Assembly (NCBI RefSeq): GCF_029167625.1
Contig: NZ_CP119145.1
Coordinates: 4,030,001 to 4,094,000 of the forward strand
Direction of reading: 5' to 3'
From: Streptomyces sp. AM 4-1-1
GTDB taxonomy: Bacteria > Actinomycetota > Actinomycetes > Streptomycetales > Streptomycetaceae
DNA: 64,000 nt
The notes under the pieces were generated by a model. That model was given only the letters and a program-made list of their open reading frames with translations. It was not told the DNA's origin and searched no databases. This document shows, piece after piece, positions 19,893 through 39,248 of this stretch. Each line of letters starts with the position of its first letter. Position 1 is the stretch's first letter. Position numbers and translations under genes: made by a program.

Positions 19893-21281
19893 GTGCGGAA
19901 GCAGATAGTCGTCGTGGGCGCGGCGGCAGCCGGTCTCACCGCCGTGGAGACCCTACGCGCCAAGGGGTACGAGGGTGGGCTCACCCTCGTCGGTGACGAG
20001 GCGCATCCCCCGTACGACCGGCCACCGCTCTCCAAGGAACTGCTGCGGGACACCTGGGACCCCGGGCAGACGTGGCTGCGGCCGGAGGACGTGCTGTCCG
20101 CGGTGGACACCGAACTGCGGCTGGGCTGCCGGGCCACCGGTCTGGACACGGGTGCGCGCACCGTCACGCTCTCCACCGGAGAACAGCTTCCGTACGACGA
20201 ACTGATCATCGCCACCGGTCTGCGTCCCCGTCGGCTGCCGTGGGGCGACGGCGTACGGGGCGTCCATGTGCTGCGTTCGCTCGACGACGCCCTACGGCTG
20301 CGCGAGGAGTTGCTGCGCGGACCGCGGGTCGCGGTGATCGGGGCGGGTTTCCTCGGTTCGGAGATCGCCGCCACCGCGCGGGAGGCCGGGCTCGACGTCA
20401 CGCTCATCGACACCAACTCCACGCCGCTGGCCCTTCAGGTCGGGCCCGGCGTCGGGGCCGGGGTGGCCGCGCTGCACCGGGAGCACGGGGTGCGGCTCGT
20501 TCTCGGCGCGGGTGTGGCGGGCCTCGCGGAGGGGCCCGGGGGAGTAAAGGCGGTACTGCTGGCCGGCGGTTCGCGGGTCGAGGCGGATCTCGTCGTCGTG
20601 GCGATCGGCTCGGTGCCCGCGGTGGACTGGCTCGCCGGTTCGGGGCTCGCCCTCGGCGACGGGGTGCTCTGTGACGCGTACTGCCGCGCCGCGCCCGGGG
20701 TGTGGGCGGCGGGGGACGTCGCGAACTGGCCGCACCCGACGGCGGGCGGCCGGGTGCGGCTGGAGCAGCGGACCAACGCGGCCCAGCAGGCCATGGCGGT
20801 CGTCGCCAACCTGCTGGCCGGGGAGGGCGCGGAACGGCCCTACGCGCCGGTGCCGTTCGGCTGGACACATCAGTTCGGGACGAAGATCCAGACCATCGGG
20901 TGGTGCTCACCGGACGCGCGTACGGAGATCGTCAGCGGTTCTCCGGAGAGCGGGGAGTTCGTCGCCGCGTACCACCGTGACGGCCGCCTGGTCGGCGCGC
21001 TGGGCTGGAACAGCGCGCGGGGGATGCGTCAGTGCCGGATGTCGCTCGGCCGTCCTTCGGCGGATTTCGTCGCCCCGGCCTCCGCCTCGACTTCCGTCCT
21101 GGTATCCGGATCGGCTTCCGCCTCGGCATACGTCCCGGCTTCCGCCTCGGCGTACGTCCCGGCCGTTGCTGAGGCTCCCGCCGTGACCGACCTGGCTTCC
21201 GCCCCCGCTCCCGCCGTGTCCGCCCCGGCTTCTGCTCCCGCTCCCGCCGTGTCCGTCGCGCCGGGTTCGGCCGGCGTCTGA
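19893..21281 (+). CDS. FAD/NAD(P)H-dependent ferredoxin reductase-like oxidoreductase
   Basis: 462 residues from a GTG start behind GAGGAG, 46 bp after P2, so probably the last gene of the P1-P2 operon. The family passes electrons from NAD(P)H through FAD to a ferredoxin, usually to feed a cytochrome P450 or other oxygenase. Visible features: N-terminal FAD dinucleotide fold ([17 protein letters not shown], with GAAAAG instead of GxGxxG), PYDRPPLSKELL typical of the BphA4/putidaredoxin reductase type, a second NAD(P)-binding GAGFLG near residues 149-154, a GVWAAGDVAN FAD motif, and a reductase C-terminal domain. The last 70 or so residues are an Ala/Ser/Pro/Val tail without fold signature. 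No ferredoxin or P450 is in the window, so the partner must lie elsewhere. A strong hairpin follows the stop. Confidence 0.9.
   Translation: MRKQIVVVGAAAAGLTAVETLRAKGYEGGLTLVGDEAHPPYDRPPLSKELLRDTWDPGQTWLRPEDVLSAVDTELRLGCRATGLDTGARTVTLSTGEQLPYDELIIATGLRPRRLPWGDGVRGVHVLRSLDDALRLREELLRGPRVAVIGAGFLGSEIAATAREAGLDVTLIDTNSTPLALQVGPGVGAGVAALHREHGVRLVLGAGVAGLAEGPGGVKAVLLAGGSRVEADLVVVAIGSVPAVDWLAGSGLALGDGVLCDAYCRAAPGVWAAGDVANWPHPTAGGRVRLEQRTNAAQQAMAVVANLLAGEGAERPYAPVPFGWTHQFGTKIQTIGWCSPDARTEIVSGSPESGEFVAAYHRDGRLVGALGWNSARGMRQCRMSLGRPSADFVAPASASTSVLVSGSASASAYVPASASAYVPAVAEAPAVTDLASAPAPAVSAPASAPAPAVSVAPGSAGV
21055..21278 (+). repeat. Low-complexity Ala/Ser/Pro C-terminal tail with repeated units
   Basis: Reiterated motifs encoding Ser-Ala-Ser-Ala, Ala-Tyr-Val-Pro-Ala-Ser and Ala-Pro-Ala-Pro-Ala-Val extend the reductase past its normal C-terminal domain. 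It resembles the in-frame repeat growth seen in other genes of this window. Confidence 0.75.
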
Positions 21282-21284
21282 TTT

Positions 21285-21331
21285 CCCGTGGGGTGCGGGG
21301 CCGGGGTGCGACCGGCCCCGCACCCCACGGG
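21285..21331 (+). terminator. Strong hairpin terminator after the reductase gene
   Basis: A perfect 20-bp inverted repeat (arms 21285-21304 and 21312-21331) with a 7-nt loop begins 4 nt after the reductase stop. It is very GC-rich and has no clear T tract, as is common in Streptomyces. It probably ends the P1-P2-reductase transcript and insulates the regulator gene downstream. Confidence 0.85.
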
Positions 21332-21365
21332 CTCCGTCGACCCGGGATTCCCCCGCGAGCCGCGT

Positions 21366-21415
21366 ATGGGTACATCTGGCGTATGCGATACCCTATGCGT
21401 GCGTGATACGCACGC
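21366..21415. promoter_or_regulatory. Candidate operator of the TetR-family gene
   Basis: Inverted repeats lie 29-78 bp upstream of the chosen regulator start. One is GCGTGCGT-GAT-ACGCACGC (21397-21415, perfect 8-bp arms). Another pairs ATGGGTA (21366) with TACCCTAT (21389). The element GCGTATGCGATACCC resembles GCGTGTTGCGTACCC in the palindrome upstream of the exporter gene, which suggests one protein binds both. Binding is inferred. Confidence 0.6.
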
Positions 21416-21443
21416 CAAGGCTTCCGATGAAGGCAGGCACGAC

Positions 21444-22205
21444 ATGAAGAACGGCGAGGGAACGGGTACGGACGGGGCCGGCCTGCCCAACAGCATCGGA
21501 GTGCTGTGGGAGCTGCGCAACCGTGAGCAGCGCACGGCCCGGACCGGGTTGAGCGTGGAGCGGATCGTCACGGCCGCGATCGAGTCGGCGGACGCCGACG
21601 GTCTGGGCGCGCTGTCCATGTCCCGCGTCGCCAAGAGCCTGGATTTCGGCACGATGTCGCTGTACCGACACGTGTCGAGCAAGGACGAACTGCAACAGCT
21701 CATGCTGGACATGGCGTACGGCACCCCGCCGCCCATCGACGCCGGGCCGGACGACTGGCGGGCGGGGCTGGAGCAGTGGGCGCGGGCGTTCCAGGAGGTC
21801 TTTCGCCGCCATCCGTGGATGCTGCAGATCTCTGTGAGCGGTCCGCCGCTGGAGCCGGGACAGCTCAGCTGGCTGGAGTGCGGACTGCGCACCCTCGGCG
21901 GTACCGCGCTGCGGCCGGACGAGAAGCTGTCCGTGATGATGCTGATGATCGGCTATGTGCGCAACTACGTGCAGCTGTCGCTGGGGGTCGTCACCCAGGA
22001 CATCAGCGAGGCCGATCTGATGGCCAACTACGGGCGGGCGCTGGCGAAGTACACGGATGCCGCGTCGTTCCCGGCGCTCGCCGAGCTGTTGGAGGCCGGA
22101 GCGTTCGAGGCGCCGGAGGACGATTTCACCTTCGGCCTCCAGCGCGTCCTCGACGGTACCGAGGTGCTGGTCAGAATCCGTAAGGGAGAGAAGCCCCTCA
22201 CCTGA
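21444..22205 (+). CDS. TetR/AcrR-family transcriptional regulator
   Basis: 253 residues from ATG 21444 (MKNGEGTGTD), with an AAGGCAGG-like ribosome site upstream. The frame is open back to 21288, but a longer start would put coding sequence through the hairpin and the inverted repeats, so the short form is preferred. Residues 35-85 form the N-terminal DNA-binding domain (LSVERIVTAAIESADADG then MSRVAKSLDFGTMSLYRHV with the helix-turn-helix and YRHV signature). The remainder is a helical ligand-binding/dimer domain of the TetR_C type. Such proteins usually repress a nearby exporter and are released by its substrate. The convergent MFS gene is the obvious target because similar inverted repeats precede both genes. 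Its effect on PKS transcription is unknown. Confidence 0.9.
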   Translation: MKNGEGTGTDGAGLPNSIGVLWELRNREQRTARTGLSVERIVTAAIESADADGLGALSMSRVAKSLDFGTMSLYRHVSSKDELQQLMLDMAYGTPPPIDAGPDDWRAGLEQWARAFQEVFRRHPWMLQISVSGPPLEPGQLSWLECGLRTLGGTALRPDEKLSVMMLMIGYVRNYVQLSLGVVTQDISEADLMANYGRALAKYTDAASFPALAELLEAGAFEAPEDDFTFGLQRVLDGTEVLVRIRKGEKPLT

Positions 22206-22392: not shown

Positions 22393-22545
22393 GGCGCGAT
22401 GGCGCGATGGCGCGATGGCGCGCTGGGGCGATGGCGCGCTGGGGCGATGGCGCGCTGGGGCGATGGCGCGCTGGGGCGATGGCGCGCTGGGGCGATGGCG
22501 CGCTGGGGCGATGGCGCGCTGGGGCGATGGCGCGCTGGGGCGACG
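22393..22545. repeat. 16-bp tandem repeat array
   Basis: Three 8-bp GCGCGATG-type units lead into eight steps of a 16-bp unit, GGGCGATGGCGCGCTG (CGCTGG at 22421, 22437, 22453, 22469, 22485, 22501, 22517 and 22533). The period is exact and the copies are identical apart from the decayed edges. There are no spacers, so it is not CRISPR. Function unknown; copy number is likely to vary between strains. Confidence 0.9.
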
Positions 22546-22637: not shown

Positions 22638-24233
22638 TCAGCCGGTGGTCGGCTGCATCCGGTTGTCGGCCGGGACGGTCGCCGGTGCGTCCAGGTCGTG
22701 CGGGTCGATGGGGTCGCCCGTCTCGATCGGCACCTTGCGGAGCAGGAAGGACACGATCACCGTCATCACGACCATGGCTCCGGCCCCGGAGAGTGCGGCG
22801 ATCTGCAGACCGTGGGTGAATGCCTCCCGGCTGGTGGCGAGGAGTTGCGCGCCGATCGCCGCCGGCTGGTGAGCGGCGACGGTGGCGGCGCCGCCGATGG
22901 TGTTGCGTACCGCGTCGAGGGCTTCGCCGCCGAGTCCGGGCGGGCTCACCCCGGCCATGTTGTCGCGGTACACGGCGGAACCGATGCTGCCGATCACCGC
23001 GAAGCCGAACGCGCTGCCGAACTCGGTGAAGGTCTCCGAGGTCGCGGTGGAGGACCCGGCGTGCTCCTTGGGCGCCGAGGTCACCACGATCTCGGCGGTC
23101 AGGGTCTTCGACGCCGTCATGCCGGCCGCCATCAGTCCGACCCCGACCAGCAGTACGGCGACGTTCGAGTCGACCGTGAGCCGGCTCAGCACCCCGAAGC
23201 CGATCGCCATCACCAGCATGCCGCTGCCGACCAGGTAGACGGGCTTGACCTTGCGGGACAGGGCCGACACCAGGCCCACGGCGATACCGATGGCGGGCAT
23301 GACGGCCATGGACCACAGCGCCGCCCGGAACGGGGTCATGCCGAGGACCATCTGCAGGAACTGGTTGGTGAGGATGCTGACGCCCATGAAGGAGAACATC
23401 ACCATCAGGTTGGTCAGGATCGCCCCGGTGAAGCCGCCGTAGCGGAACAGGGAGATGTCGATCATGGGGTGCCGCGTGGTGCGCTGCCGCTGGACGAAGG
23501 CGATGAGCAGGACGGCACCGACGACGGCCCAGATCGTGGCGTTCCGGCTGTAGCCGTCGACGACCAGCTCCTTGAGCCCGTAGATGAACGGCATGATCCC
23601 GGCCAGCGAGAGCAGCGCGCCGAGCACGTCCAGCTTGCCGCGCGAGAGGTCGCGGCGCTCGGGCAGCAGGATCGGGGCCAGCACCAGGACCAGCACCATC
23701 ACCGGGGTGTTGATCATGAAGACCGAGCCCCACCAGAAGTTGTTGAGCAGCAGTCCGCCCACCACCGGGCCGACGGCCGCGCCCGTGGCGAGCGTGCCGC
23801 TCCACGCCGCGATGGCGGTCTTGCGCTGCCCGGAGTCCTGGAACATGTTGCGGATCAGCGCGAGCGAGGTGGGCGTCAGCGTCGCCGCGCCCAGGCCGAG
23901 CAGGGCCCGCGCGCTGATGAGCATGACCGCGCTGTCGGCCGTGGCGGCGAGCGCGGAGGCCACGCCGAAGACGACGGCGCCGATGATCAGCAGCTTGCGC
24001 CTGCCGAACCGGTCGCCGACCCATCCCATCGTGATCAGGGCGCCCGCCAGTACGAAGCTGTAGATGTCCATGATCCACAGCAGCTGGGTGGCGCTCGGTT
24101 TCAGCGCCTCACTGACGGGTGTGATGGCGAACCCGAGCACCGAGATGTCGATGGCGATCAGCAGGGTGACCAGGACGATCACCACGAGGCCGAGCCATTC
24201 CTTGAGCCCCGCTCGGGGCTTGATTTCTGTCAT
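22638..24233 (-). CDS. DHA2-family MFS drug exporter (14 TMS type)
   Basis: 531 residues from the ATG at 24233 (MTEIKPRAGLKEW). The frame is open to 24335, but that extension would cross the 70-bp palindrome, so the shorter start is chosen; AGGAAGG lies upstream at a rather long distance of about 14 nt. Integral membrane proton-driven exporter. First helix at about 13-36 with IAIDISVLGFAIT (DHA2 motif), motif A GWVGDRFGRRK at 70-80, motif C around ATGAAVGPVVGG, and hydrophobic segments that I count at roughly 14. A long loop (DNMAGVSPPGLGGEALDAV and following) before the last helix is typical of the QacA/actinorhodin-exporter group. Likely role: export of the cluster product and self-protection, under the convergent TetR-type repressor. 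Confidence 0.92.
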   Translation of the reverse strand: MTEIKPRAGLKEWLGLVVIVLVTLLIAIDISVLGFAITPVSEALKPSATQLLWIMDIYSFVLAGALITMGWVGDRFGRRKLLIIGAVVFGVASALAATADSAVMLISARALLGLGAATLTPTSLALIRNMFQDSGQRKTAIAAWSGTLATGAAVGPVVGGLLLNNFWWGSVFMINTPVMVLVLVLAPILLPERRDLSRGKLDVLGALLSLAGIMPFIYGLKELVVDGYSRNATIWAVVGAVLLIAFVQRQRTTRHPMIDISLFRYGGFTGAILTNLMVMFSFMGVSILTNQFLQMVLGMTPFRAALWSMAVMPAIGIAVGLVSALSRKVKPVYLVGSGMLVMAIGFGVLSRLTVDSNVAVLLVGVGLMAAGMTASKTLTAEIVVTSAPKEHAGSSTATSETFTEFGSAFGFAVIGSIGSAVYRDNMAGVSPPGLGGEALDAVRNTIGGAATVAAHQPAAIGAQLLATSREAFTHGLQIAALSGAGAMVVMTVIVSFLLRKVPIETGDPIDPHDLDAPATVPADNRMQPTTG

Positions 24234-24265
24234 GGCGAACGTCCATGCCTTCCTGCGGTCACATG

Positions 24266-24335
24266 TTGGGTACGCAACACGCAGAGCGTACCACGTACGC
24301 GCGTACGTCATACGCTCTGCGTGTTGCGTACCCAA
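24266..24335. promoter_or_regulatory. 70-bp near-perfect palindrome, candidate double operator for the exporter
   Basis: Arms 24266-24290 and 24311-24335 are perfect 25-bp inverted repeats. The core 24293-24308 is itself a perfect 16-bp palindrome, ACGTACGCGCGTACGT. Only two of 35 base pairs mismatch. Within the left half, GGTACGC (24269) and GCGTACC (24286) form a smaller inverted repeat with 10-bp spacing; the right half mirrors it with CATACGC. It ends 32 bp before the exporter start and lies 41 bp past the stop of the upstream adenylation gene. Two dimers of the TetR-type repressor side by side would fit. It could also act as a cruciform or terminator for the leftward trio. Confidence 0.75.
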
Positions 24336-24375: not shown

Positions 24376-26076
24376 TCAGCGAGTCCTCCCGAGACGCTCC
24401 TCGGCCCGGCGGGCCAGCGCGCGACGGTCGATCTTGCGGTTGGGGTTGAGCGGGAACTCCGGCAGATGGAAGAAGTGCTGGGGGATCACGGCTCGCGGAA
24501 GCGTCCGGCTCAGTTCGCGCGCCAGCAGTACGGGGGCCACCGGCTCACCGATGTGGAAGGCGACCACCTCGACGGTCTGCCCCGAGGCCGCCGCCACCGC
24601 GACCGCCACCGCTTCCTCGACCCCGGCGCACCGGCGCAGCGCCTCGTCGATCTCCGCCAGCTCCACCCGTACCCCGCGCACCTGCACCTGTTGGTCCAGG
24701 CGGCCGAGATACAGCAGCTCGCCTCCACCGGAGGACCGCACCCGGTCCCCCGTCCGGTAGAACCGGAGACCGTCCCGGTCGACGAACCGGCCCGCGTCGT
24801 CGGCCGGATCGAGATATCCGTCGGTGAGCTGCGGACCCGCGACGCACAACTCGCCCTCCACCGGGTCGGGTTCACCGTCCTTGTCGAGGAGCACCCACGC
24901 GTGGCCCTCGTGCACCCTCCCGATGGGCACCACACCGGCCACCGCGATGCGCTGCGACCGCTCGGGCGACCAGCGGTGCCGGGTGATGGTGACGGTCAGC
25001 TCGGTGGGCCCGTACAGGTTCTCCACCACCGACCTCGGCGCCGCGACGGACCAGTCCTCGGCGTCCTGACAGGTCACCGCCTCGCCCGCGAAGAAGCTCA
25101 GCCGCAAGGACGGCAGCGCCCCCTCCGTGAGCCTGCCGGTCCGCCGGACCAGGCCGATCGCGCTGGGGGTGGAGAACCACACGGTGATGCCCTGCTCGGT
25201 CACGAACTCCGGAAGGTTCCGGTACGCCTCCGCCGGCACGGACACCAGCGTCGCCCCGGCCCCCCACGCGCAGAAGAGGTCGAACACGGCGCAGTCGAAG
25301 TTGAGATCGAAGTTCTGCGAGAAGGCGTCGTCCGGACCGAAGTCGTAACGGTCGTCCAGCACGCCGAAGTAATGCGCGGTGTTCCGGTGCGTGACCGGCA
25401 CCCCCTTGGGACGGCCCGTGGACCCGGAGGTGAACAGGATGTACGCCACGTCGTCGGGCTCGACCGGGCGGGGGCGGGGGAGGCGCAGCCGGGGGTCGGG
25501 TACGAGGGTCCGCCCGGGGTCCGGGGCTGAGCCCGCGCCCGCGCCCGGGGCCGATTCCGGGGTTGCGCCCGTGACCGGGACCGGGACCGGGACCGTGACC
25601 GGGGTCGCGCCCGTATCCGTGACCGGGGCCGCGCCCGTATCCGCGCCCGTATCCGCGCCCGTGTCCGGGCCGGTGTCCGGGCAGAGTGCCGGTAGATCGA
25701 CGCCCTCCGCCCGCAGCAGTCCCAGTTCCGTGGCCGAACCGCCGTCCACGAACAGCGCCTCGACTCCGGCCGCCTCGATCATCTGCCGGGTACGCAGCAC
25801 CGGGAAGGACGCCTGGAGCGGCACCATCGTCACACCCGTGAACAGGCAGGCGAGTATGCCGGTGTAGGCGTCGAGCCCCTTGCCCACCAGTACACCGACG
25901 GCCCCCGGCCGCTCGGGAAGCGAGGCCAGCAGCGAACCGGCCCACGTCAGGGCCCGCTCGTACAGCTCCGTGTACGTCAGCTCCGCGCCGTCCGAGCGGA
26001 CGGCCACCTGGTGCGGAGAGCGGGCGAGACCACGCAGGAAACGGTCATAGAGGGCGTGCGCCGGTATCTGGTCCAT
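24376..26076 (-). CDS. Free-standing amino-acid adenylation enzyme (NRPS A-domain type ligase)
   Basis: 566 residues. The family activates an amino or related acid as acyl-AMP and loads it onto a carrier protein; the ACP two genes upstream is the likely acceptor. Core motifs: A3 ILFTSGSTGRPKG near 213-225, A5 NLYGPTE 353-359, A7 YRTGDR 440-445, A8 region 458-480, A10 NPNRKID 544-550 with Lys548. My manual pocket read (GrsA positions 235, 236, 239, 278, 299, 301, 322, 330, 331, 517) is D-C-F-S-F-A-L-V-T-K; the conserved Asp points to an alpha- or beta-amino acid, but I cannot name it. Residues 132-186, just before A3, are a Thr/Asp/Gly/Pro/Val repeat absent from normal A domains. The start overlaps the end of the transposase-derived gene by 32 bp, so translation is probably coupled. 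Confidence 0.9.
   Translation of the reverse strand: MDQIPAHALYDRFLRGLARSPHQVAVRSDGAELTYTELYERALTWAGSLLASLPERPGAVGVLVGKGLDAYTGILACLFTGVTMVPLQASFPVLRTRQMIEAAGVEALFVDGGSATELGLLRAEGVDLPALCPDTGPDTGADTGADTGAAPVTDTGATPVTVPVPVPVTGATPESAPGAGAGSAPDPGRTLVPDPRLRLPRPRPVEPDDVAYILFTSGSTGRPKGVPVTHRNTAHYFGVLDDRYDFGPDDAFSQNFDLNFDCAVFDLFCAWGAGATLVSVPAEAYRNLPEFVTEQGITVWFSTPSAIGLVRRTGRLTEGALPSLRLSFFAGEAVTCQDAEDWSVAAPRSVVENLYGPTELTVTITRHRWSPERSQRIAVAGVVPIGRVHEGHAWVLLDKDGEPDPVEGELCVAGPQLTDGYLDPADDAGRFVDRDGLRFYRTGDRVRSSGGGELLYLGRLDQQVQVRGVRVELAEIDEALRRCAGVEEAVAVAVAAASGQTVEVVAFHIGEPVAPVLLARELSRTLPRAVIPQHFFHLPEFPLNPNRKIDRRALARRAEERLGRTR
25519..25683 (-). repeat. In-frame repeat inserted in the adenylation enzyme before motif A3
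   Basis: Units encoding Asp-Thr-Gly-Ala/Pro, then Pro-Val-Thr and Val-Pro-Val-Pro, make about 55 extra residues on the protein surface between the A2 and A3 regions. The frame is preserved and all core motifs are intact. Confidence 0.85.
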
Positions 26077-27289
26077 GGTGTACCCCGAGGAGACGGTGGA
26101 TGGGTGGGGGAGTCCTGCGGTCCACGGCGTCCGGCAGCGGAACGGCGTGTTCGCGCCAGGAGCCGGTCGGGATGTCGAGCAGGGCCCGCAAGGAGTTCCG
26201 CATGGCGGGCGCCGCCTCGAAGGTGCCGCCGCGGAAAGCGGTGCGACCGGTGGTACGGATGAGGACTTCCGCGAGCGTCCACCAGGAGCGGTCCGCCGCC
26301 GTCCGATGCACGGTGATGTCGATGTTTCTGGCCAACCACGCCCGCATCCGAGGGGAGTTCACCGGCGCCCGTCCGTCGACGACGACCAGAAGTCTCGTAC
26401 GTGGGTGGGCCGCCGTCACCGACTCCAGGAAGGAGAGGAACGCCGCCGGTGCGGACGGCTCGGCCACCACGGCACGCACCTGCCGCGCCCGGTCCGCCGC
26501 CGACGGGGACGAGGACGCTGAGGGGGAGAGGGCGGCGGAGGAGGAGGTGGAGGCGGAGAGGTCAACCGTGCGGACGCCTGAGCCGATACCCGAGCCGGCC
26601 CCCGGACCATCGATACCCGAACCGACACCTGGGCCGAACCTCGCACCCACACCTGGGCCGAGCCCCGCACCTGGGCCGAGCCCCGCACCGACCCCTGGGC
26701 CGAGCCCCGGCTGCCCGCCGGCCCTGACCACCACCGCGTTCCACGGCGGCGCGAGCCGGAGCCCCACCACCTCGCGGGCCTCCGGCTCGAACGCGGGCAC
26801 CGTGGGCGGGCGGAACGACTCCGGTCGCTGCGGCTGGACACCCCAGCGGCGCCACACCTTCGAAACCGTGGAGTGGGCGAGCCCCAGCTCCGCGGCGAGC
26901 AGCCGCGAGGACCACCGGGCGGCGCCCAGACGCATCGGGGGCCTGCCACCGTCTGCCAGCGTCGCGCCCAGGACGGCGGTCTCGTCGACCGCGGCCGGGC
27001 GGCCCGGCCGGGGCAGATCGCCCAGCGCGTCGATTCCCGAAGCCTCGTACCTGGCACGCCACTTGAGGACCGTGGGACGGGAGACCCCGAGACTGGCGGC
27101 CACCTCCGTGTTGGAGACGCCCCGGGCGGCGAGCAGCACGATCCGGGCACGCCGCACCAGCCCGGCCGGCGCGGTCGACATCCGGGTCAGCGCCTCAAGC
27201 CGGGCCCGGTCCCCCTCACGCAGTCGGAGCGCGGAAGCGATGGGCACGGGAACCGCGACCCTCAGAGCAGGCTCTGCAACGTGCGCCAC
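26045..27289 (-). CDS. Exapted IS630-type transposase-derived DNA-binding protein
   Basis: 414 residues from GTG 27289, which overlaps the ACP end by 28 bp. Residues 45-80 (RARIVLLAARGVSNTEVAAS, then LGVSRPTVLKWRARY) and 125-152 (WSSRLLAAELGLAHSTVSKV) match the paired helix-turn-helix of IS630/Tc1-like transposases. VVGLRLAPPWNAVVV (174-188) matches the strand that normally leads into the first catalytic Asp (DEKSQ); here it runs into AGGQPG and a Gly/Pro then Ser-rich linker (193-265). The rest of the DDE fold follows: RLLVVVDGRAPVNSPRMRAW (Asp305) and ITVHRTAADRSWWTLAEVLI (Glu341), ending RGGTFEA. The first Asp and a core segment are therefore lost, so it should not transpose. Its place between two coupled biosynthetic genes suggests a recruited DNA-binding, perhaps regulatory, role. 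I saw no terminal inverted repeats. Confidence 0.8.
   Translation of the reverse strand: MAHVAEPALRVAVPVPIASALRLREGDRARLEALTRMSTAPAGLVRRARIVLLAARGVSNTEVAASLGVSRPTVLKWRARYEASGIDALGDLPRPGRPAAVDETAVLGATLADGGRPPMRLGAARWSSRLLAAELGLAHSTVSKVWRRWGVQPQRPESFRPPTVPAFEPEAREVVGLRLAPPWNAVVVRAGGQPGLGPGVGAGLGPGAGLGPGVGARFGPGVGSGIDGPGAGSGIGSGVRTVDLSASTSSSAALSPSASSSPSAADRARQVRAVVAEPSAPAAFLSFLESVTAAHPRTRLLVVVDGRAPVNSPRMRAWLARNIDITVHRTAADRSWWTLAEVLIRTTGRTAFRGGTFEAAPAMRNSLRALLDIPTGSWREHAVPLPDAVDRRTPPPIHRLLGVHHGPDTGARPL
26486..26713 (-). repeat. Gly/Pro and Ser-rich linker replacing the transposase catalytic core
   Basis: Repeats encoding Gly-Leu-Gly-Pro-Gly-Val/Ala units (about residues 193-238), followed by a Ser/Ala/Pro run to about residue 268. 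It sits where an active IS630 transposase has its first catalytic strand and following sheet. Confidence 0.8.
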
Positions 27290-27498
27290 AGTCTTTCCGG
27301 ACTTTCGAACGTGTCCAGCGTCAGTGCCTCGTCGCGGAACTGGACGTCATAGGTGGACTCCAGACCCGCCAGGAGCTCGATCATGCCGAGCGAGTCGAGC
27401 CCGTAGTCACGCAGCCGCATGGTGCCCTCGATCGGCTCGTCGGGCGGGAGGAAGGAAAGCTGCTTCCGCAGAAGGGCCTCGAACTGTTCGTCCCACAT
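27262..27498 (-). CDS. Free-standing acyl carrier protein
   Basis: 78 residues from ATG 27498 (MWDEQFEALLRKQL), with GGAG 6 nt upstream. The frame is open further upstream, but that part looks non-coding. The phosphopantetheine site is Ser36 in YGLDSLGMIELL; helix pattern and length are those of a discrete ACP/PCP. It is the first gene of the leftward trio and divergent from P3. Likely partner: the adenylation enzyme at 24376-26076, which would charge it with an amino acid for use as a PKS starter or as an intermediate. Transfer to the PKS would need an acyltransferase not seen here. The end overlaps the next gene by 28 bp. Confidence 0.9.
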   Translation of the reverse strand: MWDEQFEALLRKQLSFLPPDEPIEGTMRLRDYGLDSLGMIELLAGLESTYDVQFRDEALTLDTFESPERLWRTLQSLL

Positions 27499-27700
27499 GA
27501 TGACTCCGGTTTCGACGCGTACGCCATGGCGCACGAAGGGCGGTTCACTCGATGCCGCGCGAAATCGCCATACGTCGGAAAGGGCGGATGGAAACAGCGG
27601 GCGGCAGAGCGGAGACATGGGAACGGGTCCCGCCCGGTGACATCCGGACGGACAGTCCTTCCCGGCCGCAGACGCTATCGGGGCGACGATGGAATCAGTA

Positions 27701-27720
27701 CCCCTATCCACCGCCCCTAT
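27701..27720. promoter_or_regulatory. CCCCTAT direct repeat, candidate activator site
   Basis: Two CCCCTAT heptamers start 13 bp apart in the middle of the divergent region, about 260 bp before P3 and 200 bp before the ACP gene. Paired heptamers are typical of pathway activators (SARP or LuxR/LAL types), but no such gene is in the window; the binding protein is a guess. Confidence 0.35.
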
Positions 27721-27777
27721 GGCCGGACGGGCGGGCGACGAGACCCCTGAACCGGGCCTCGTACCCATGTCCGCCCC

Positions 27778-27800
27778 GGTCGGCCGACGACCGGCCGACC
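27778..27800. promoter_or_regulatory. Short inverted repeat upstream of P3
   Basis: GGTCGGCCG (27778-27786) and CGGCCGACC (27792-27800) are perfect 9-bp arms around 5 nt, about 180 bp upstream of the P3 start. It may be an operator or a leader hairpin. In such GC-rich sequence, chance is also possible. Confidence 0.3.
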
Positions 27801-27977
27801 CGGCGGACTCTGGGGTACGGGGGCGGAGCAGGGGCTGAGATGTGGGGGCGCCGAAGCCTGATCAGGGGTGGGCAGCGAGCCGGCGACGCCGTAATTTCCG
27901 AGCTGTTCCGGTCTCGTGCCGAACGTCGTTCCGGCCTGCGGTCCGCTGCCACGTCATGACACAGAAGGGCATGCTCG

Positions 27978-39248
<11,271 letters not shown>

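Follow-up and report, generated by a model that had tools for sequence, protein, structure and literature searches.

Between the genes for a VinL-like acyl carrier protein (ACP) and a VinM-like adenylation (A) enzyme, a 64,000-nt stretch of DNA from Streptomyces sp. AM 4-1-1 (hereafter the window) carries a gene that is very likely a domesticated IS630-type transposase. Its product has a double helix-turn-helix (HTH), and we consider it reasonably probable that this protein acts as a DNA-binding regulator of the biosynthetic cluster in which it is encoded. Domestication, which had been proposed in an initial annotation of this DNA, is backed by a fixed gene position, by purifying selection on the HTH half of the protein and by searches that found neither identical copies in the genome nor terminal repeats near the gene. 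DNA binding, the regulatory role, its target and the sign of its effect are features that we infer. All coordinates follow the numbering of the window; negative values and values above 64,000 denote flanking DNA beyond it. The open reading frame (ORF) at 26045–27289 on the minus strand is intact and encodes 414 amino acids (aa), within which the following features were placed.

26045–27247, minus strand: IS630-derived HTH gene in its likely true extent, with a GTG start and 400 aa (alignment of starts with relatives)
27023–27157, minus strand: first HTH, residues 45–89 of the 414-aa ORF (Pfam HTH_23, 7.1e-16; predicted local distance difference test score (pLDDT) 94–97 per ten-residue block)
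26834–26983, minus strand: second HTH, approximately residues 103–152 (HTH_32, 3.2e-10 over residues 73–146)
26717–26719, minus strand: codon for Gly191, at the position of the first catalytic Asp of IS630 transposases (alignment)
26507–26710, minus strand: Gly/Pro/Ser low-complexity linker, residues 194–261, made partly of 18-, 24- and 42-nt DNA repeats and disordered in the structure model
26165–26506, minus strand: DDE (RNase H-like) remnant with D305 and E341 (alignment and model; ratio of nonsynonymous to synonymous substitution (dN/dS) ~0.50)

A protein search, in which 8,000 candidates were scored and the best 120 of 390 were listed, yielded at least 19 close relatives without the DDE_3 domain among the matches listed; together with the window protein these make up a family of 20. 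Among the same matches, 12 of 13 named relatives are called "helix-turn-helix domain-containing protein" and one "IS630 family transposase". The window protein exceeds the cut-offs of Pfam HTH_23, HTH_28, HTH_29 and HTH_32, with both HTHs in its first ~150 residues, as well as that of the NCBIfam IS630 profile (NF033545; 104 bits, cut-off 100), which bears out the paired HTH of IS630 type described earlier. The IS630 profile matches all 20 family members at E ≤ 1e-5, and the second-HTH helix AHSTVxxVWRxW is identical in 11/11 loci. By contrast, Pfam DDE_3 (PF13358) left the window protein unmatched in the profile search: it matched 22 of 45 scanned proteins, the window protein not among them, and was listed for none of the 19 relatives in the precomputed domain list of the protein search. 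Across the strain's own genome DDE_3 was found in eight other places, seven of them in 365-aa open frames, with the HTH gene again unmatched. Because the IS630 cut-off is passed and DDE_3 is not matched, the HTH protein is, by these profiles, a descendant of an IS630 transposase without a recognisable catalytic domain, and it seems no longer able to cut DNA; the intact DDE_3 domain with Asp, Asp and Glu that marks a working IS630 element was not found in it. With IS630 transposases it shares the double HTH, the overall order and the spacing between the second catalytic Asp and the Glu (35 residues), and it is 48% identical over 86% of its length to that of S. cadmiisoli (P0013) and 46% identical to the copies of Streptomyces sp. 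GQFP (L037–L039).

Alignment of the family located the loss more precisely. The segment between the first and second catalytic Asp (Asp1 and Asp2), which we take to carry strands 2–3 of the RNase H fold, is absent from all 20 members. The Asp1–Asp2 spacing is 50–53 residues in the 17 compact members versus 81–82 in 21 of 25 other relatives, while the window protein and two others (P0006, P0012) have unrelated low-complexity fill that brings the distance between the two positions to 91–113 residues. Downstream of this segment the spacing from Asp2 to Glu is 35 residues in all 20 members; D305 and E341, previously assigned as the second and third DDE residues, do align with Asp2 and Glu, separated by 35 residues as in P0013. 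The related proposal that the strand carrying Asp1 runs into AGGQPG and the linker describes the window protein correctly (Gly191) but not the family, in which 17/20 members keep Asp1 and it is the Asp1–Asp2 segment that is missing instead. Asp2 is kept in 14/20 members (Asn in five, Glu in one) and the catalytic Glu in 18/20 (Asp in two), so that all three residues are retained in 11/20. A function for the Gly/Pro linker is doubtful, since it is made of DNA repeats and 17/20 members have a short segment there.

In the structure model of the window protein (mean pLDDT 69.7) both HTHs are predicted with confidence, the linker at residues 194–261 is disordered (pLDDT <50) and the alpha/beta core is partial; the model of a 300-aa member (P0021; mean pLDDT 77.2) likewise places a small alpha/beta core downstream of the HTHs. 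A structure comparison named the DNA-binding parts of Mos1, SETMAR, Pax and Tc3 among other HTH proteins, as weak matches that cover mainly residues 24–146 and hardly touch the remnant fold. A DNA-binding domain, as would be expected of a cluster regulator, is thus indicated by four HTH families and a confident model.

Marks of mobility were looked for in the strain's own genome and near the gene. No near-identical copies were found in the genome, the next best matches being 39–41% identical, and no terminal inverted repeats were found near the gene: the best matches to GQFP ends reach 21/32 positions, the ten best are all distant, and three shuffles reach 19. The intact repeats and many identical copies that would have spoken against domestication were therefore both missing from the places searched. 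The genome holds seven IS630-type copies, 39–41% identical to the HTH protein, including C1:12889–13425 and C2:36465–36995, and CTAGTGTCCTGAGTCG ends are visible at 3/7 of these loci as printed. A lone IS630 relative elsewhere (P0053; L040 10001–10951 and L098) carries Ala where the catalytic Glu would be, has a leader that looks like an IS630 end and, as judged from the sequence, lies near ThiF-like and MFS-like genes. It was rejected as a second domesticated case, as it has no ACP or A neighbour and looks like a lone decaying element.

The double HTH is the end-binding part of IS630-type transposases, and its being the conserved part of the protein, together with the seven IS630-like copies in the genome, would suit a protein that still recognises IS630-type ends and keeps active IS630 elements in check by blocking or titrating them, shielding the cluster or the genome. 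We regard this as unlikely: those copies are 39–41% identical to the HTH protein, the ends visible at three of the seven copy loci differ from the ends of its closer relatives, and such a role gives no reason for the gene's association with one cluster lineage and with the ACP–A operon.

Selection along the frame was assessed in pairwise comparisons that are not independent of each other. The median dN/dS of the HTH half was 0.19 (codon bootstrap 0.15–0.27; 143 codons, 10 loci, 45 pairs), that of the catalytic remnant was 0.50 (0.38–0.61; 10 loci, 45 pairs), and the HTH half had the lower value in 44/45 pairs. For the neighbouring A and ACP genes the values were 0.215 and 0.123, respectively (11 loci). 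The share of substitutions that falls on third codon positions is 61% for the HTH half, 44% for the remnant and 59% for the A gene, and gap columns number 0/143 in the HTH half versus 139/270 in the remnant. The HTH half was better conserved than the rest of the protein in 190/190 family pairs, as against 5/210 pairs among 21 intact IS630 transposases. The constraint is thus inverted relative to intact IS630 transposases, although the remnant retains some. Purifying selection after the loss of mobility, as expected of a domesticated transposase, is seen in the HTH half at a dN/dS of 0.19. Compared with IS630 transposases, then, the HTH protein has no terminal repeats that could be found, a shortened or replaced Asp1–Asp2 segment, no detectable DDE_3, no close copies in the genome and an inverted pattern of constraint.

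These data also bear on whether the gene is an IS630 copy in decay that was caught inside an operon, its frame kept open solely by overlap and coupling with the A gene. Such a passenger would account for the drift of the catalytic part with its many indels and for the conserved C-terminal tail, which we considered and rejected as a functional signal, as the overlap with the A gene explains its conservation. It is nevertheless quite unlikely, given that the HTH half has a dN/dS (0.19) about as low as that of the A gene (0.215) and no gap column in 11 loci, that the recognition helices are nearly invariant and that no internal stops occur among the family matches listed.

The position of the gene was compared across loci, beginning from its immediate neighbours.

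27262–27498, minus strand: VinL-like discrete ACP, 78 aa (PDB 5czd, 5.2e-27; 8k4r chain B, 9.6e-27; PP-binding, 2.4e-08)
24376–26076, minus strand: VinM-like A enzyme, 566 aa (PDB 8k4r chain A, 1.3e-185; AMP-binding, 1.6e-59)
22638–24335, minus strand: MFS exporter, the next gene downstream (MFS_1, 5.9e-44)
21288–22205, plus strand: TetR regulator (domain search; a neighbour in 9/10 long relatives)
19893–21281, plus strand: FAD-dependent reductase (Pyr_redox_2, 4.7e-56; a neighbour in 9/10 long relatives)

The search for the same gene order elsewhere, suggested in the initial annotation, returned ACP–HTH–A in 12/12 distinct Streptomyces loci read: the window, G005, G131, G204, G463, Streptomyces sp. 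RKAG290, S. laculatispora, S. poriferorum, Streptomyces sp. 130, A0642 and ATexAB-D23, and S. atratus; the contexts read leave out 11 of the 19 listed relatives. Orthologs of the gene therefore hold a fixed position in several species. An MFS gene follows downstream in 10/10 relatives read at length, and the TetR and reductase genes are present in nine of these, the contig of Streptomyces sp. 130 (L033) ending before both. The family is uncommon in the samples, occurring in 5 of 199 Streptomyces genomes and, at a stricter threshold, in 3 of 345 genomes of a wider-family sample, the strain's own included in each; the matches listed from both samples have no internal stops. In a sixth genome of the 199-genome search (G118) an IS630 relative of intact type is present three times.

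In a tree of 118 proteins, built by a quick method with several long branches and a midpoint root, a branch supported at 98% separates the 20 family members from the rest. VinM proteins from HTH-bearing clusters group together with modest support (86/52; recovered in 84% of 200 bootstrap trees), and pairwise distances computed from the HTH half correlate with those from the A gene (r = 0.95). On the strength of the single tree group, the VinM grouping and the distance correlation, the data fit one insertion that would then have been inherited together with the cluster.

Related clusters show what the locus looks like when the gene is missing. VinL-like ACPs were detected at E ≤ 1e-10 in 42/199 Streptomyces genomes, and those with ≥74% identity to the ACP of the window occur in five, exactly the genomes that have the HTH family. 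The surroundings of the ACP were read in 15 of the other 37 genomes, over ~1.5 kb on each side and, for seven of the 15, also over 18–19 kb. None of these 15 loci yielded an HTH relative at E ≤ 1e-6. The VinL–VinM pair of vicenistatin biosynthesis has its counterparts in the ACP and A enzyme that flank the HTH gene here; in four of the 15 loci (G108, G052, G029, G111) a VinM-like gene directly follows the ACP gene, with no HTH gene between them. A further locus (G140) has no other macrolactam-starter gene save a weak A match and may belong to another kind of cluster. As none of the 15 has an HTH relative, the gene is an addition in one lineage and not something that the pathway generally requires.

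The initial annotation had the gene overlapping both neighbours, by 28 nt with the ACP gene and 32 nt with the A gene, and hence translationally tied to both. The start at 27289 is the mechanical first GTG of the ORF, and in 10/10 long relatives the ATG aligns instead with the window's GTG at 27247, which is likely the true start. Since this aligned start sits past the ACP stop, the 28-nt overlap is most likely an artefact of ORF listing, and with it the proposed tie to the ACP gene probably falls away. From the ACP stop to the aligned HTH start there are 14 nt in the window and 9–11 nt in the long relatives, except for 58 nt in G005. In the window and in 9/10 long relatives the ACP stop reads TGAGG and so shares bases with a Shine-Dalgarno-like GAGG. 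By contrast, the overlap with the A gene is genuine:

26045–26076, minus strand: overlap of the HTH gene with the start of the VinM-like A gene, 32 nt (10 of 11 loci measured)

In the remaining locus, G005, 98 nt separate the two genes. The gap of 9–14 nt after the ACP stop in 10/11 loci and the 32-nt overlap in 10/11 could mean that the frame serves to set the ratio of ACP to A-enzyme translation and that the protein itself matters little. This is very unlikely: selection acts on the amino acids of the HTHs, and unevenly along the frame, ACP and A genes are adjacent in four related clusters, and G005 keeps the HTH half without the overlap.

The divergent region at 27499–27977, proposed earlier as the target of the protein, contains conserved promoter-like blocks in 11 loci.

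27700–27719, minus strand: two TAGGGG boxes 13 nt apart in the ACP-operon promoter region (conserved)
27663–27682, minus strand: TAGCGT block, −10-like, on the ACP side (conserved)
27855–27877, no strand assigned: GGGGTGGGCA block on the side of the polyketide synthase (PKS) gene (conserved)

The TAGGGG boxes are spaced 10 nt apart in nine relatives, 13 nt in the window and 23 nt in G005, and a TTAGGGG box lies upstream of the vinK-like gene in 6/6 loci compared. TAGGGG boxes were also noted at −11609 to −11403; macrolactam-type clusters with and without the HTH gene share such boxes, often arranged as a direct repeat at 10-nt spacing. When ACP-operon and vinK promoters of the six loci were compared, nothing stood out beyond TAGGGG-type boxes. 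The boxes are similar to what we take to be the ACCCCT box of SlnR, a likeness not confirmed in the literature searched, and their user is likely an activator of LuxR/LAL type.

Three points weigh against a domesticated regulator of this cluster. Catalytic residues, to judge from the alignment, would not by themselves prove that transposition chemistry is lost. Repeats of TAGGGG at 10-nt spacing occur in five of the seven HTH-less loci read at length (L089, L090, L092, L094, L095), so the boxes do not follow the HTH gene and are unsupported as its own operator. Finally, sequence searches with IS630 ends and motifs recognised no operator for the HTH protein in the cluster; an operator derived from an IS630 end gave no signal in 27499–27977, where 161 of 200 shuffled ends reach the observed score. 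With an IS630-end likeness no better than shuffles and boxes that also occur in HTH-less clusters, the claim that this region is the target found no support. The failure to recognise an operator within the cluster would suit a DNA-binding regulator with its main targets beyond it, a reading we nonetheless find quite improbable, as the gene travels with the cluster in 12/12 family loci read. Regulation of the protein's own cluster is favoured because the double HTH has been retained by selection.

The wider setting of the gene extends beyond both ends of the window. We take PDB entries 5czd, 8k4r, 5czc, 3wvn and 3wmr to be Vin proteins.

27978–39248, plus strand: divergent type I PKS gene (reading of the translation)
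−11283 to −10336: VinK homolog (Pfam VinK_C, 5.7e-31; PDB 5czc, 7.8e-119)
−7350: VinN homolog (PDB 3wvn, 1.6e-190)
−5824: pyridoxal phosphate-dependent decarboxylase in the VinO position (nearest solved structure BtrK, 1e-58), the least sure of the Vin set
−4047: glutamate mutase E chain (Met_asp_mut_E, 1.6e-78)
66726: VinJ homolog (PDB 3wmr, 1.2e-144)
69223–71970: LuxR/LAL-type regulator (AAA_16 and GerE)

Homologs of VinK, VinL, VinM, VinN, VinO, glutamate mutase and VinJ thus occur together at one locus, and by this predicted gene content the cluster is a vicenistatin-type macrolactam starter cluster. The available parts of PMC5785472 and PMC10662134 associate such a gene set with macrolactams that have a 3-methylaspartate-derived starter, and the available part of PMC11284099 describes the VinM–VinL crystal structure. 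The VinM-like protein is 566 aa long in the window, 515–518 aa in 9/10 relatives and 533 aa in G005. Within the A gene, 25520–25679 is repeat-rich low-complexity DNA, and similar runs occur in the PKS frames; this strain may often expand its repeats. A near-perfect 16-bp tandem repeat in 9.2 copies, at 22396–22543, lies between the convergent MFS and TetR genes.

DNA-binding factors that derive from transposons are well known from animals and plants, and the Pax/paired-domain factors and SETMAR of animals have transposase ancestry. With these the HTH protein shares the tandem HTH, through weak matches of sequence and structure; unlike them it is bacterial, would stem from a separate event and still has a DDE remnant attached. 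Within bacteria, TldR proteins descend from TnpB and are transposon proteins turned regulators, as the HTH protein would be. The available part of PMC13418256 describes them as RNA-guided transcription factors of bacteria; they are, however, unrelated to the HTH protein, for which nothing points to RNA. In the available part of the review PMC8987985, on the recruitment of prokaryotic mobile elements, the transcription-factor examples are of phage-repressor and antitoxin kind, and these and TldR are the nearest bacterial precedents found. Among the papers listed in the literature searched there was no IS630-derived bacterial regulator and no paper that joins transposase domestication with regulation of the host cluster. 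For the same class of cluster, the available part of PMC10662134 covers regulators of LuxR, two-component and gamma-butyrolactone type, and the window's cluster also has a LuxR/LAL-type protein; the main text of that paper has no occurrence of "transposase" or "helix-turn-helix".

Taken together, these results suggest a course of events in which an IS630 transposase gene would have inserted between vinL- and vinM-type genes in the ancestor of one cluster lineage. The terminal repeats and a portion of the catalytic domain would then have disappeared, and the gene would have become a member of the operon, read between the ACP and A genes. Selection has retained the paired-domain-like double HTH, and the protein would most likely bind DNA as a regulator tied to the cluster, be produced together with the starter-unit enzymes and probably exert feedback on the cluster that encodes it. 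The reduced RNase H-like core is under looser constraint, perhaps kept for pairing. More tentatively, the protein could be a bacterial counterpart of Pax, in which a DDE transposase of the IS630-Tc1-mariner group became a dedicated pathway regulator. Its shortened core, with the Asp2–Glu spacing fixed, would then serve in sensing or pairing and be adapted to the starter-unit machinery that the genes on either side encode.

The sequences present a well-supported case of a domesticated transposase with a putative regulatory role, and a compact one: a dozen loci share a defined insertion point between two characterised kinds of gene, intact relatives with known ends allow comparison, and the output is measurable. 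If true, it would add a type of cluster regulator that genome miners would overlook, since it is annotated as an HTH protein or an IS630 transposase.

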